DNA from: Lactococcus allomyrinae
Lineage (GTDB): Bacteria > Bacillota > Bacilli > Lactobacillales > Streptococcaceae
DNA length: 64,000 nt
Direction: 5' to 3'
Assembly (NCBI RefSeq): GCF_003627095.1
Contig: NZ_CP032627.1
Coordinates: 1,240,001 to 1,304,000 of the forward strand
Below, in pieces: positions 4,054 through 62,023 of this stretch; position 1 is the first letter of the stretch; each line of letters starts with the position of its first letter. Under the pieces are notes generated by a model. It saw only the letters and a program-made list of their open reading frames with translations, ran no database searches and had not been told where the DNA came from. The translations under genes and the position numbers were made by a program.

Positions 4054-4065
4054 GTCAGTACTGAC
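4054..4065. repeat. 12-bp palindrome GTCAG[TC][AG]CTGAC, first exact copy of a dispersed family
   Basis: Exact copies of this core start at 4054, 4709, 5412, 12173, 14194, 21341, 21437, 22103, 30702, 38430, 41454, 43327, 45465, 51334, 51579, 54683, 55150, 59519, 59669, 61389 and 61721. Most extend to CTGTCAG..CTGACAGAA. Those at 4054, 14194, 41454, 43327 and 54683 are intergenic and the rest lie inside genes. Many half-sites and spaced pairs (for example 1732-1749, 11770-11790, 28681-28703, 30907-30920, 53075-53092, 62289-62309) belong to the same family. The function is unknown. Confidence 0.9.
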
Positions 4066-4078
4066 AGAAAATATTTTG

Positions 4079-5944
4079 CTAATCATAATACCCGTCAGCG
4101 ACCATCAATTCAATCAAGCGCTTAATAAATTCATCGCTTGTTTGACTTCTTCGCAAAAAATTCACATGATATTCTTCAACAAGTATTTCAATAATTCTTG
4201 GAAATATACGATTAAAATCATGTGAATCTGCTGGATTTATCGCCATCGCCAGAATCAATTTTATTGACTGTTCATCCCAGTAAAGCGGCTGAACTGGTTT
4301 TAATACAAGAAATCCAGTTTTCTTTCCTTCGTATCTGATGGTATGAGGAAGTGCGACACCGCTTGTAAAGGCAGTCGATGCCATTTTTTCCCTCTCAAAT
4401 AATCGTTGGGTATAATGATGATCAGTAAATCCCTTTTCGAAAAACCACTGTCCAATGAAGCTGAACACTTCTTCTTTTGATTCTACTTTTTCCAGTGCTA
4501 TGCACGCTTCTTTTTGAATTAATTTTGGTAAAAATTCTTCTAAAAAGTGTAAATAACGCTTTTGTTTGGTGCGTTCAATTCCTTTGCGAATTCTTACGAA
4601 ATCACGTTCTCTTAAAAATTCTTGGATAAAAACGACTTCTGCATCATAATCGAAAAATTTTTTCTCTGACGAAATAATAAACTCAACGCTGTCAGTATTT
4701 TTTATTTCGTCAGCACTGACAAAAAGTAATTCATCACCAAAGCGTGATTCCAATAAGACTTGAATCTGATTTTCTCTCTCTAAATAGTCTGAGCCAACAA
4801 GCAAAGTATGAATTTTTTCCGCATTTTTCTTTTGCTCATCCAAAAAAGAACCAATATGCAACGCCAAAAAAGCAATTTCATCCTCAGCAATCTCAATTTT
4901 CAAATCCGTTGCGATCAACGAAGACAAATATACTGCAACATCAAACAAAGCAGGATAACGCATCTTAATCTCTAAGGCACTCAGATTTCGCTTAACTTTT
5001 TTATTTTTTACTCGATTATAAAGATTTTGAGTATGAAGTAACAGACGATTTAAAAACTGTTGGTCAGTAAAATCAATCAGGAATACACTACTTAATTCTT
5101 CCAATGCCCGATGAAGACTAGCCGAAACATTTTTTGACACATAATTAGAAACTTCAACTTCACGATGCCCTCGCTCGCCATCGCATAACAAAGCCAGCTC
5201 AAACTTATCCTCCTGCGCCAGCTCAAGATGATAGTGATCAAAAATAGACTCTGCAATTTTTTCAATCATTGGCAAAGATGGACTTGAAAACACCTTAGAC
5301 TCATCCTGCCATTTCTGATTAAGTACAATAATCAGGTGCAAAATAAAATTCTGAAAAAAATATTGATTCACATGAAAATTAAATTCGTCAAAAACCTGCT
5401 GACAGATTTCTGTCAGCACTGACAACGGAATTTCTCCTAAAAATTGCTGCATTTCACCTTCCAGAGAAGGTGCATCACCATTTTTCTTACGAATGAGTGT
5501 CATGATAAGTAGCCGTTTCGCCTCTTGAGTCCCTGTCAAATAATAGCGAAACTCATGCTGCTTAATCATCAATTGATAATCCTGCATTAACTCTTGCAAC
5601 GCTGACATATCCTGACGAATGGTTGATTCCGACACCAAAAGCTCCTCTGCCAAATCAAATAAATCTACTCCATCGTCACCTTTTTGCAGTAAATAACGTA
5701 AAATAGAAAATCTGCGCCCATCCACCGATTCATCCACTTTTGGCACCTCAAAATACTGCCAATTATATCGGTAGCCCTCCCGACTACTTTCCACCAAATC
5801 AGGCACATCATCATTAAGTTGTTTCACATAATACCTGATGCTTCGATTTGTGACACCTAATATTTTTGCTAAATCCGAACTCGAAACAAACTGCTCCTTC
5901 TTCTGATTTTTTAGATAATCTAAAAGAATTTCTTTCTTTTTCAT
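4079..5944 (-). CDS. LicR/BglG-type PTS-regulated transcriptional activator (HTH-PRD-EIIB-EIIA)
   Basis: Predicted regulator of the adjacent cellobiose-type PTS operon. The 621 residues begin with a DeoR/HTH_11-type helix-turn-helix (SSSDLAKILGVTNRSIRYYV, about 22-41) and a second HTH (LAEELLVSESTIRQDMSAL). PRD domains follow, the second ending in AFLALHIGSFLDE, then a degenerate EIIB-like region (HTLLVGSDYLERENQIQ) without an obvious active cysteine. At the C-terminus is an EIIA domain with its histidine in GVALPHT (H534). In such proteins activity depends on phosphorylation by HPr and the cognate EIIB. The coding sequence carries two exact copies of the 12-bp palindrome, one of them encoding PLSVLTE. 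Its substrate is inferred from the neighbours only. Confidence 0.85.
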   Translation of the reverse strand: MKKKEILLDYLKNQKKEQFVSSSDLAKILGVTNRSIRYYVKQLNDDVPDLVESSREGYRYNWQYFEVPKVDESVDGRRFSILRYLLQKGDDGVDLFDLAEELLVSESTIRQDMSALQELMQDYQLMIKQHEFRYYLTGTQEAKRLLIMTLIRKKNGDAPSLEGEMQQFLGEIPLSVLTEICQQVFDEFNFHVNQYFFQNFILHLIIVLNQKWQDESKVFSSPSLPMIEKIAESIFDHYHLELAQEDKFELALLCDGERGHREVEVSNYVSKNVSASLHRALEELSSVFLIDFTDQQFLNRLLLHTQNLYNRVKNKKVKRNLSALEIKMRYPALFDVAVYLSSLIATDLKIEIAEDEIAFLALHIGSFLDEQKKNAEKIHTLLVGSDYLERENQIQVLLESRFGDELLFVSADEIKNTDSVEFIISSEKKFFDYDAEVVFIQEFLRERDFVRIRKGIERTKQKRYLHFLEEFLPKLIQKEACIALEKVESKEEVFSFIGQWFFEKGFTDHHYTQRLFEREKMASTAFTSGVALPHTIRYEGKKTGFLVLKPVQPLYWDEQSIKLILAMAINPADSHDFNRIFPRIIEILVEEYHVNFLRRSQTSDEFIKRLIELMVADGYYD

Positions 5945-6113
5945 CCTATTATCCCATTTTCATCATTTTCACAGTAAAATACCTGTCTATCCTATCTTTT
6001 GACATCCATACAAATTTATTCCAGCTATTTCGGAACTCTTAAAATCTTATTTCACAGCCTTTGAGTACCAACAATTTGGACACCCTCTCTTACAATCATA
6101 CCAAGTCAAGCTC

Positions 6114-6136
6114 AAAAAGGAGTTTAAAAACTCCTT
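6114..6136 (-). terminator. terminator of the cellobiose-type PTS operon
   Basis: Arms AAGGAGTTT and AAACTCCTT (6117-6136) followed on the minus strand by a T-run; the upstream arm overlaps the stop codon of the phospho-glucosidase gene. Confidence 0.8.
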
Positions 6137-60624: not shown

Positions 60625-60763
60625 GAGAAATTCCTATTTTTTTAGAGGTTATTTATCTAGTGAAATCCAGTTGTCCTATGGATAATTCATTGTGTACTCT
60701 TCCTATTATATCGTATTTCATCAAAAAAACGTAGCCCTGAATTGAGTTACGTAAAAGACTTGC

Positions 60764-60993
60764 ATGAAGTCAAGACTTATTCAGTGGGAGTTTCGTAAAA
60801 CATTTGTCCATTTTCTCTAGTCGCTGAAGCGACTGATAAAAGGGCAACTCACCGCTGAATTTAGTCGGACGAAATTCAAAGCTTGCCATTTCGTCTTGTC
60901 GCTTCAGCGACTTAGAGCGAATGGACAGCGTAGCATAGCGAAGATAGTACTGCTTTATCCCTAGGTAGGGGTATTAGCACGCACTTGCTTTGA
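60764..60993 (+). repeat. intergenic repeat family A, copy 2
   Basis: Same opening ATGAAGTCAAGACTTATTCA and same closing AGCACGCACTTGCTTT as 26557-26740, with an extra block (CTAGTCGCTGAAGCGACT) near the start. The two copies have the same orientation. It fills the gap between the cvpA upstream region and the end of the reductase gene. Confidence 0.8.
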
Positions 60994-61057
60994 TAAATTT
61001 ATCAATAATTTTATGAAATCAATTCATTTTGCTTTTTTGCACATATCTAATAACCTA

Positions 61058-62023
61058 TCAGAAGAGTGATGAGGAATGTCCTTTTCTTATGGCATGATCT
61101 AGCGTCAAAACTTTTGTCATTGCATTGATTGCTGTGACTGCTTCTCCAAAGCCAACCGACATCAGAGGGACTTTACCTATGTAATCACTCGCATCTCCAG
61201 CAGCATAAAGTCCCTCAATATTTGACTGCTGTTCACGGTTTGTTTTCACACGACCATTGCGACTTAGCTCAATCTCATCAATCAAATCAATGTGATTCGT
61301 CACAAAACCATAATTGACAAGTATCTTATCTACTGACAAATTGACTTTTTCGTCAGATTTTACTTTTGTCAGCAACAATCCTGTTTCTGTCAGTGCTGAC
61401 AGGGTATAAGGAACATAAATTTCCACACTTGACTCAGATACTTGCTCAACAGTAATTTCATGAGCTCGAAATGCGGTCCTCCGATGAATAAGATGCACTT
61501 TTTCTGCAATATTTTCAAGCATCAATGACCAGTCCAAAGCAGAATCTCCACCTCCAAGCACTGCAACCCTTTTTCCTCGGAATTCTTCGAGCGACCGGAT
61601 AAAATACGATATTTTTCCAGATTTAGCAAATTGTTCCTCGTGTTCCAACCCTAGCTTTCTCGGGGTCAAAAGTCCAGCTCCTGTCGTTAATAACACCGCT
61701 TTTGCACTTCTTTTTTCCTTGTCAGTGCTGACAAAAAATCCGTCAGTAACTTTTTCAATTTTTTGAACAGATTCGCCTAGAAAAAGCTCGTGAGGCACTC
61801 GTGCCACTTGTTCTAAAAGGTTTTGGGTCAAATTAATTCCTGAAATTACAGGCAATCCTGCAACATCATAAATCAATTTTTCAGGGTATAGATTTTGTGG
61901 TTGTCCCCCTGCAACTTCCGCAGACTCAATCATTGCCACAGATAAACCTCGCATTCCAGCGTAAAATGCTGCATAAAGTCCAACAGGACCCGCTCCAACA
62001 ATAATCAAATCTACATTCTGCAT
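61058..62023 (-). CDS. ferredoxin/flavodoxin-NADP reductase, thioredoxin-reductase-like (type 2, YumC-like)
   Basis: A 321-residue FAD protein: FAD motif VDLIIVGAGPVGLYAAFYAG, NADPH motif VAVLGGGDSALDW, and the C-terminal FAD motif GLYAAGDASDYIGKVPLMSV GFGEA. The redox CxxC of thioredoxin reductase is absent, which defines the FNR class. Two exact palindrome copies, at 61389 and 61721, encode TLSALTETG and FFVSTDKEK. Confidence 0.92.
   Translation of the reverse strand: MQNVDLIIVGAGPVGLYAAFYAGMRGLSVAMIESAEVAGGQPQNLYPEKLIYDVAGLPVISGINLTQNLLEQVARVPHELFLGESVQKIEKVTDGFFVSTDKEKRSAKAVLLTTGAGLLTPRKLGLEHEEQFAKSGKISYFIRSLEEFRGKRVAVLGGGDSALDWSLMLENIAEKVHLIHRRTAFRAHEITVEQVSESSVEIYVPYTLSALTETGLLLTKVKSDEKVNLSVDKILVNYGFVTNHIDLIDEIELSRNGRVKTNREQQSNIEGLYAAGDASDYIGKVPLMSVGFGEAVTAINAMTKVLTLDHAIRKGHSSSLF

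Follow-up and report, generated by a model that had tools for sequence, protein, structure and literature searches.

A paired, helically phased half-site in Lactococcus genomes, tentatively read as the target of a multivalent DNA-binding protein

Palindromes in the window and its genome

The window examined in this study is a 64,000-nucleotide stretch of Lactococcus allomyrinae DNA (contig NZ_CP032627.1, positions 1,240,001 to 1,304,000, forward strand) through which a 12-bp palindrome, GTCAGYRCTGAC, is dispersed. A first-pass annotation of this DNA had counted at least 21 exact copies; exactly 21 were recovered, between positions 4054 and 61732, compared with a mean of 0.01 and a maximum of 1 in 100 dinucleotide shuffles. 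Sixteen of the 21 copies lie in called genes, the number previously estimated, one of them (30702) in a short and doubtful open reading frame (ORF); gene calls throughout come from our own simple caller. The same annotation had described the palindrome as absent from ffh, tkt, asd, rbsA, rbsC and purB, and none of the 21 copies fell in the matching ORFs, although with only 21 copies this is weak evidence. The sites in the window are listed below by position (none is assigned to a strand), together with their state in the sister species G011.

4054..4065, palindrome GTCAGTACTGAC, intergenic; kept in G011
4709..4720, palindrome GTCAGCACTGAC, in gene 4079-5944 (weak matches to a phosphotransferase-system-type regulator and IIA domain); TA centre in G011
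5412..5423, palindrome GTCAGCACTGAC, in gene 4079-5944; overlaps a convergent pair from 5399; kept in G011
11776..11793, convergent pair CTGACAGAAATCTGTCAG
12173..12184, palindrome, in proA; kept in G011; G016 carries CTGAC-N6-GTCAG at roughly this position (gapped alignment)
12927..12944, convergent pair, in proA
14194..14205, palindrome GTCAGTGCTGAC, intergenic, upstream of proB; no G011 alignment
21341..21352, palindrome GTCAGTGCTGAC, in a 507-aa ORF without NCBIfam match; in G011 the centre is TA and a gap adjoins the site
21437..21448, palindrome GTCAGTGCTGAC, in the 507-aa ORF; lost in G011
22103..22114, palindrome GTCAGTACTGAC, in the 507-aa ORF; lost in G011 by one substitution
22249..22264, CTGAC-N6-GTCAG pair, the arrangement dominant in G016
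28685..28702, convergent pair CTGACAGATTTCTGTCAG
30702..30713, palindrome GTCAGTGCTGAC, in the doubtful ORF 30518-30877; lost in G011
38430..38441, palindrome GTCAGTGCTGAC, in a sugar kinase gene, within a half-site cluster at 38405-38465; TA centre in G011
41454..41465, palindrome GTCAGCACTGAC, intergenic
43327..43338, palindrome GTCAGTACTGAC, between genes, close to uxuA
45465..45476, palindrome GTCAGTACTGAC, in a fructuronate reductase- or arabinitol dehydrogenase-like gene; TG centre in G011
51164..51182, convergent pair CTGACAGATTTTCTGTCAG, in a ribokinase gene
51334..51345, palindrome GTCAGCACTGAC, in the ribokinase gene
51579..51590, palindrome GTCAGTACTGAC, in the ribokinase gene
54683..54694, palindrome GTCAGCACTGAC, intergenic
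55150..55161, palindrome GTCAGTGCTGAC, in aroD
59519..59530, palindrome GTCAGCACTGAC, in mutS2; TA centre in G011; four further species have no site
59669..59680, palindrome, in mutS2; lost in G011 by one substitution; orthologous palindrome in G005 and overlapping N6 pair in G016
61389..61400, palindrome GTCAGTGCTGAC, in a thioredoxin reductase-like gene; shared with G005; CG centre in G011
61721..61732, palindrome GTCAGTGCTGAC, in the thioredoxin reductase-like gene; shared with G013 (gapped alignment); TA centre in G011
62290..62308, convergent pair CTGACAGAATTTCTGTCAG, intergenic, adjoining ccpA

The abundance is a property of the whole genome. The window's own genome (G000; 2,758,410 bases in 3 contigs) holds 415 copies of GTCAGYRCTGAC and no copy of the reversed control, with the window lying above the genome average (21 copies in 64 kb versus 415 in 2.76 Mb).

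Paired half-sites and helical phasing

The palindrome is one arrangement of a half-site, TTTACTGACAGA. When CTGAC and GTCAG were counted at all spacings, many arrangements were found besides the palindrome, and the half-sites and spaced pairs mentioned in the first-pass annotation proved to be real and the more basic feature. The top over-represented octamers belonged to one half-site, TTACTGACAGA, in five of six sampled word-bearing Lactococcus genomes; in the sixth, G013, the palindrome core led. Half-sites with a neighbour within 60 bp show the consensus TTTACTGACAGA, which is nearly missing from isolated ones, so that the unit is the pair or cluster. The flanks of convergent pairs tend to TTTA...TAAA and not to a T-run, and a transcription terminator was rejected, on sequence alone.

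Distances between CTGACA copies in G000 follow the DNA helix. Copies in the same orientation peak at approximately 20-21, 30, 40, 50-51 and 60 bp, convergent copies at 12-13, 22, 31-33 and 41 bp, and divergent copies at 8/10, 29, 38 and 50 bp. The best-fitting periods for convergent, divergent and direct pairs were 10.3, 10.5 and 10.3 bp (powers 26.5, 18.4 and 48.0), and the sister species gave 10.3, 10.5 and 10.5 bp (powers 26.1, 21.4 and 48.1). These fits omit the closest spacings and are compared with 500 draws of uniform distances, which never exceeded 9.6 in G000 and reached at most 11.3 in G011. Pair spacing in both species is thus a multiple of 10.3-10.5 bp in all three orientations, up to about 70 bp. 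In G007, which we guess to be an L. lactis-like species, direct pairs had a period of 10.6 bp (power 10.0, null 95% 6.4) and convergent pairs one of 10.1 bp (power 10.2, null 95% 5.7, null maximum 11.7), with no periodic signal in divergent pairs. A 14-bp direct spacing in G007 comes largely from one tandem array; arrays containing the half-site occur there at L134 position 1432 and L169 position 17267 (eight copies at 14-15 bp, ~73-bp repeat).

Measured from centre to centre of the quasi-symmetric CTGNCAG, the orientations nearly coincide, at approximately 9-12, 20-22, 30-32, 39-43, 50-53 and 59-63 bp, except that direct pairs lack the first step. Direct pairs are phased both in genes (power 29.1) and outside them (power 20.0). 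Tandem duplication was ruled out as their source, with flank identity of 0.29 compared with 0.28 for random pairs of sites.

A hexamer screen without prior choice of word, limited to direct pairs and with words dominated by a single distance dropped, served as an empirical control over words. TGTCAG took first place among 693 words in G000 (104.8), 458 in G011 (48.9), 214 in G007 (16.1) and 48 in the sister-genus genome G045 (11.1, tied with an overlapping word); the last value is only slightly above noise, since A-rich words reach 10.5 in the same screen. In G012 the leading word was CGTCAG, first of 145 (23.2), while the best words of G021, G003 and G017 reached 3.6, 8.0 and 4.2. To our knowledge, no other genome-wide word shows helical phasing in every orientation, nor is such phasing of pairs a recognised feature of DNA uptake sequences (DUS).

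Such phasing, present whatever the orientation, requires one protein or an arrayed set of them touching one face of double-stranded DNA at several linked points. The palindrome may accordingly be a composite of two half-sites, (TTTA)CTGACAG(A), lying on the same helix face as putative binding sites, an assignment that we hold tentatively.

Dialects, conservation and placement of the sites

Species differ in the arrangement that they prefer: inverted pairs spaced by N2 or by N6, phased arrays of mixed type, or CTGACG instead of CTGACA. Across 18 genomes of the genus, GTCAGYRCTGAC was most frequent in G005 (762 copies), followed by G011 (433), G000 (415), G013 (408) and G002 (71); six of the remaining 13 genomes had 2-24 copies and seven had none. 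CTGAC-N6-GTCAG, counted in 22 genomes, was most frequent in G016 (562), followed by G007 (161), G001 (160), G012 (76), G000 (59), G011 (51) and G015 (31), with at most 8 copies in each of the others. G012 has a one-base sequence dialect, in which CTGACG replaces CTGACA as the helically phased word (loci L176-L179 and L347-L350) and TACTGACG (596 versus 74 for its control) is preferred over ACTGACAG (141 versus 47). Beyond the genus, G045 holds 337 copies of a 14-mer form, mostly with a CG centre in the 80 kb sampled. This 14-mer was found in 16 of 196 genomes of the family and in 5 of 295 genomes of the order, including the window's own, with one copy in each of the other four. No palindrome was found genome-wide in G003, G004, G006, G008 or G010, which we guess to be a garvieae-like clade, or in the named 17-21 kb loci of L. 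garvieae, L. petauri and L. formosensis. In G017 (L339-L342) a different word, CTGTAAAC/GTTTACAG, is over-represented (15 copies versus 1.3 expected), with few copies of its heptamer form.

Alignments of G000 with G011, restricted to those of at least 500 bp and at least 85% identity, covered 167,835 positions at 93.5% identity. CTGAC was conserved at 459 of 568 sites, making it the best conserved of 60 pentamers of the same composition (the others together, 8316 of 12171). Conservation was 77 of 88 in palindromes, 200 of 230 in sites with a phased partner, 41 of 51 in those with an unphased partner and 141 of 199 in isolated sites, where the phase windows were chosen after viewing the G000 spectrum; phased and isolated sites differ (p = 4e-5). 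Twenty of the 21 window palindromes could be aligned to G011, of which 16 were kept and four were lost by substitution, and seven of those kept have an altered central dinucleotide, by transitions in the central pyrimidine-purine (YR) step.

The suggestion that the DNA word rather than the protein is kept was supported. Of 90 palindromes in 464 kb sampled from G000, 63 lie within called genes and are read alike in two frames (29 and 34), the only two used because the third would contain a stop, and clustered half-sites in genes do not lean significantly to either strand (310 sense, 265 antisense, p = 0.066). Frame use, strand balance and pentamer conservation led us to reject a protein- or codon-driven word. 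Sites in a palindrome or with a phased partner are conserved beyond isolated ones. Several alignments to more distant species are ungapped at the sites, so these arose by point changes. The remaining distant alignments contain gaps and do not decide the origin. Because several orthologous places lacking the site align without gaps, an inserted or mobile palindrome was rejected.

Composite sites also coincide at orthologous positions in more distant species. Four of six coincided within 3 bp between G005 and G013 (0.04 expected; 73.8% identity), 5 of 15 between G000 and G013 (0.10 expected), 3 of 7 between G000 and G005 (0.06 expected) and 5 of 20 between G016 and G007 (0.03 expected), and identity in the examples of orthologous coincidence ranged from 71 to 78%. 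Between G000 and G016, whose main arrangements differ, 2 of 17 coincided within 3 bp (0.12 expected) and 5 of 17 within 12 bp (0.47 expected); in mutS2, and in proA (gapped alignment), an N6 pair of G016 stands where the window has a palindrome. In the other pairs coincidence was a minority: of 27 sites compared between G000 and G007, 2 agreed within 3 bp and 3 within 12 bp. No coincidence within 3 bp was seen between G016 and G005 (0 of 2), G016 and G013 (0 of 3) or G007 and G001 (0 of 1).

Along the G000 chromosome the palindromes are close to Poisson-distributed (dispersion 1.13) over 41 stretches of 20 kb; 43 were sampled and two in a motif-free stretch were dropped. Relative to an origin placed near 2.18 Mb by GC skew, there was no significant origin-terminus trend over these 41 stretches (rho 0.20, p = 0.20), the five nearest the origin being lower (2.2 versus 3.6-4.5). 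A mark of the origin, terminus or a macrodomain is thus unsupported. In G000 the gaps between genes had a higher density (per kb, 2.52 where tandem, 2.62 where convergent and 1.28 where divergent) than the genes themselves (0.81). Convergent gaps reached 12.7 per kb in G007 and 13.7 per kb in G012, on just 1.6 and 1.8 kb. In each of the four species counted, divergent gaps were poorer than tandem and convergent ones. The word apparently occupies the places where it is least harmful.

The motif-free stretch of G000:C1, at approximately 178-298 kb (~115-120 kb), is probably a recently acquired island. No palindrome occurs at 177,642-297,888 and no ACTGACAG on the forward strand, the one listed, at 183,737-297,944; 20 kb sampled inside it held three CTGACA copies, none clustered. 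In the first 20 kb of the 54.9-kb contig C2, which is perhaps a plasmid, the palindrome was missing and a single half-site was seen. When viral contigs were scanned for one 14-mer form, 78 stretches with one site each were returned, and no word-rich phage was among these. Another locus, L223 (G000:C1:2030001-2050000; low GC, 0.344), has nine CTGACA copies, none clustered, and is perhaps a further acquired segment.

Possible readers of the word and its known relatives

This is a real, strong and odd feature, which belongs among the genome-wide words kept at the DNA level. Words of this kind are uncommon, and every one of them has brought a basic process to light (Chi, KOPS, DUS and the highly iterated palindrome HIP1). 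Helical phasing is the physical fingerprint of a protein contacting one DNA face at several linked points, and two settings fit a reader of this kind, namely DNA uptake and a nucleoid or membrane tether.

We lean, without great confidence, towards the sites being targets of a multivalent reader of double-stranded DNA, most likely serving the recognition of self-DNA in transformation. A sequence-specific protein, oligomeric or arrayed on the cell surface, would bind double-stranded DNA at the sites, and its job, of which we are less sure, would be self-DNA recognition in natural transformation. Fragments with phased sites could be gripped by several receptors at once and so be taken up preferentially, and site-bearing alleles would then replace site-less ones, so that the word would accumulate where genes tolerate it. 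Molecular drive of this type has been proposed for the uptake sequences of Haemophilus and Neisseria, and it suits the density, placement and dialects of the word, its scarcity in the foreign DNA sampled and the way in which redundant sites persist at fixed positions. The code itself, chromosome-wide and without known counterpart, might consist of CTGNCAG set whole helical turns apart in any orientation, with a multivalent receptor that changes in geometry and base preference from one species dialect to the next, a proposal that we likewise put forward with reserve. If it holds for uptake, this would be the first Gram-positive self-DNA uptake code known to us, working by avidity instead of through a single site, and could explain and improve natural transformation in an industrial genus. 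Phase, pairing and dialects make a reader testable, in that a 5-bp change in spacing should alter how a DNA fragment behaves.

Several observations weigh against uptake. We know of no sequence-specific DNA receptor in Gram-positive bacteria, and known uptake sequences act as single copies, whereas isolated lactococcal half-sites look like background, almost without extended consensus apart from weak remains in G007. Multi-turn phasing is not seen in every dialect: the top hexamer of G005 is the A-rich TAAAAA (10.5), with TGTCAG at only 4.2, and TGTCAG is not among the top phased words of G016, G013 and G002 because direct pairs are few there, inverted pairs dominating in G016 and G013. Conservation differs significantly neither between phased and unphased sites (p = 0.27) nor between unphased and isolated ones (p = 0.22), so the comparison demonstrates that partnered sites are kept, and not that phase as such is. 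The competence machinery does not track the word, because matches to it also occur in word-free species, and its presence is of no help as a correlate. On the side of uptake, the ComEC competence domain was found in all 17 lactococci searched. Overall it was present in 21 of 22 genomes (with reading frames that look short in G001 and G003, as in the incomplete G045), and ComEA-like matches in 20 of 20, none above the family's curated cut-off and that of G018 very weak. No gene was found to track the motif across species, although whole gene sets were not compared. In favour of uptake, a strain of L. cremoris and one of L. lactis transform upon over-production of ComX (PMC11244767); against it, a search of that report gave no uptake-sequence term.

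The main rival is that an intracellular, oligomeric and perhaps membrane-anchored protein binds the chromosome to organise or tether the nucleoid, which we consider unlikely but a serious contender. Flexible DNA-binding domains arrayed on a flat membrane would favour half-sites on one face in any orientation, in keeping with the phasing in all orientations. The most concrete candidate is RocS, in Streptococcus pneumoniae a membrane-bound segregation protein with a MerR-type winged-helix fold, which has a DNA-binding domain, oligomerises before attaching to the membrane and resembles RacA and pSK1 Par (PMC11500499). A DUF536 protein that is RocS-like by its N-terminal helix-turn-helix-like stretch was present in all 21 genomes searched, and in the motif-free G003, G004, G006, G008 and G010 the end of its presumed recognition helix reads RIKQL or RTKQL, not RVK[ST]L, and the coiled-coil stretch is lacking. 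However, that helix is identical in G012 (CTGACG), G007 (CTGACA) and the word-poor G009, and motif-free G017 also has RVKSL. No site cluster at rocS was common to the eight genomes examined, no ori-ter pattern was seen, and hundreds of redundant sites would each need selection to stay in the same place. Two observations concern these loci: G045 has ten CTGACA hexamers in its 3.1-kb rocS locus, and G013 encodes two extra DUF536 proteins (L207 and L208) besides the RocS-like one. SlmA, Noc, MatP and RacA likewise use dispersed chromosomal sites, in tens and biased to the origin or terminus, while lactococcal sites number hundreds and no such bias was found.

It is rather improbable that the word marks self-DNA for a repair, recombination or defence enzyme acting on double-stranded DNA, with a Chi-like purpose but paired and phased sites. 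The spread over the whole chromosome is compatible with this, as is scarcity in one chromosomal stretch and in what was sampled of C2. Chi sites are asymmetric; here the composites are palindromic and clustered half-sites in genes lack significant strand bias. In addition, GCGCGTG, presumably the lactococcal Chi site, was recovered separately by word count in G021 and G003.

A highly iterated palindrome of the HIP1 type, arising from, and maintained by, putative methylation-coupled mismatch repair as modelled in cyanobacteria (PMC4390886), is a distinctly improbable origin. Like HIP1 and other cyanobacterial HIPs, the lactococcal word is an over-represented palindrome with variants between species; it lies within genes too, and the transitions in the central YR at seven of 16 kept sites would agree. 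HIP1 is an octamer linked to methyltransferases (PMC4390886), whereas lactococcal spacing and orientation vary with helical phase, and the window's species has several phased spacings and orientations instead of one fixed word. Variable spacings, direct pairs and 10.3-10.5 bp phasing are hard to derive from a methyltransferase word.

The half-site word itself was already known. A 2008 transcriptome paper described gtcagtaa/ttactgac downstream of genes in L. lactis IL1403 (~19% in the genome), spread uniformly over functional classes but almost lacking in genes of phages and transposons, and cites earlier work, including Mrazek, Gaynon and Karlin 2002, for a highly repetitive motif (PMC2526093). 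This word, GTCAGTAA/TTACTGAC, has the same half-site, and TTACTGAC lies inside the lactococcal consensus TTTACTGACAGA, so that the two are the same word. The section of PMC2526093 on it treats a single downstream word and mentions no pairing, phasing, inverted palindromes, dialects or conservation. Our literature search, mostly at the level of listings and covering palindromes, the half-site, iterated palindromes, uptake sequences and frequent words, found none of pairing, phasing or dialects and no settled role for the L. lactis word. The organisation thus appears to be new, although part of it could already be in Mrazek, Gaynon and Karlin 2002. An element acting in messenger RNA (mRNA) is a very improbable role: PMC2526093 cites another paper linking GTCAGTAA to mRNA destabilisation, and G000 tandem and convergent gaps have about three times the coding density, but the coding-strand bias is not significant and the periodicity extends to direct and divergent pairs, including direct pairs inside genes. 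Mobile palindromic elements or a protein-repeat or codon artefact, suggested by repetition alone, are hardly credible given the ungapped site-less orthologous places, unlike flanks of direct pairs and two frames used alike.

The likeness to uptake sequences noted in the first-pass annotation stands in part. DUS occur in many copies in and between genes and form dialects, and the lactococcal word is likewise over-represented, genes included, and differs in dialect between relatives. Density, placement and dialects support the likeness, and the little foreign DNA sampled, being poor in the word, leans the same way; against it stand the lone copy, which by consensus and conservation is not the unit, and the helical phasing of pairs in every orientation, which that annotation had not seen. 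The DUS of Neisseriaceae and Pasteurellaceae arise by point mutation, as lactococcal sites do where alignments are ungapped, but their unit is a single non-palindromic copy of 9-10 bp (PMC1939737), compared with a pair or cluster in a Gram-positive host. Because a defining feature of each family was looked for and not found, we place the word in neither the DUS nor the HIP family. A further likeness is to BldC, a MerR-like protein lined up on repeats one helical turn apart, although BldC binds head-to-tail at regulated promoters (PMC5859096), whereas lactococcal sites occur genome-wide in all orientations and are poorer in divergent gaps.

One other gene of the window deserves mention. At 6135-7588, a 380-aa ORF resembling 6-phospho-beta-glucosidase looks frameshifted: its match ends near position 348 of a model with 478 positions, and it shares sequence with a second, overlapping ORF.

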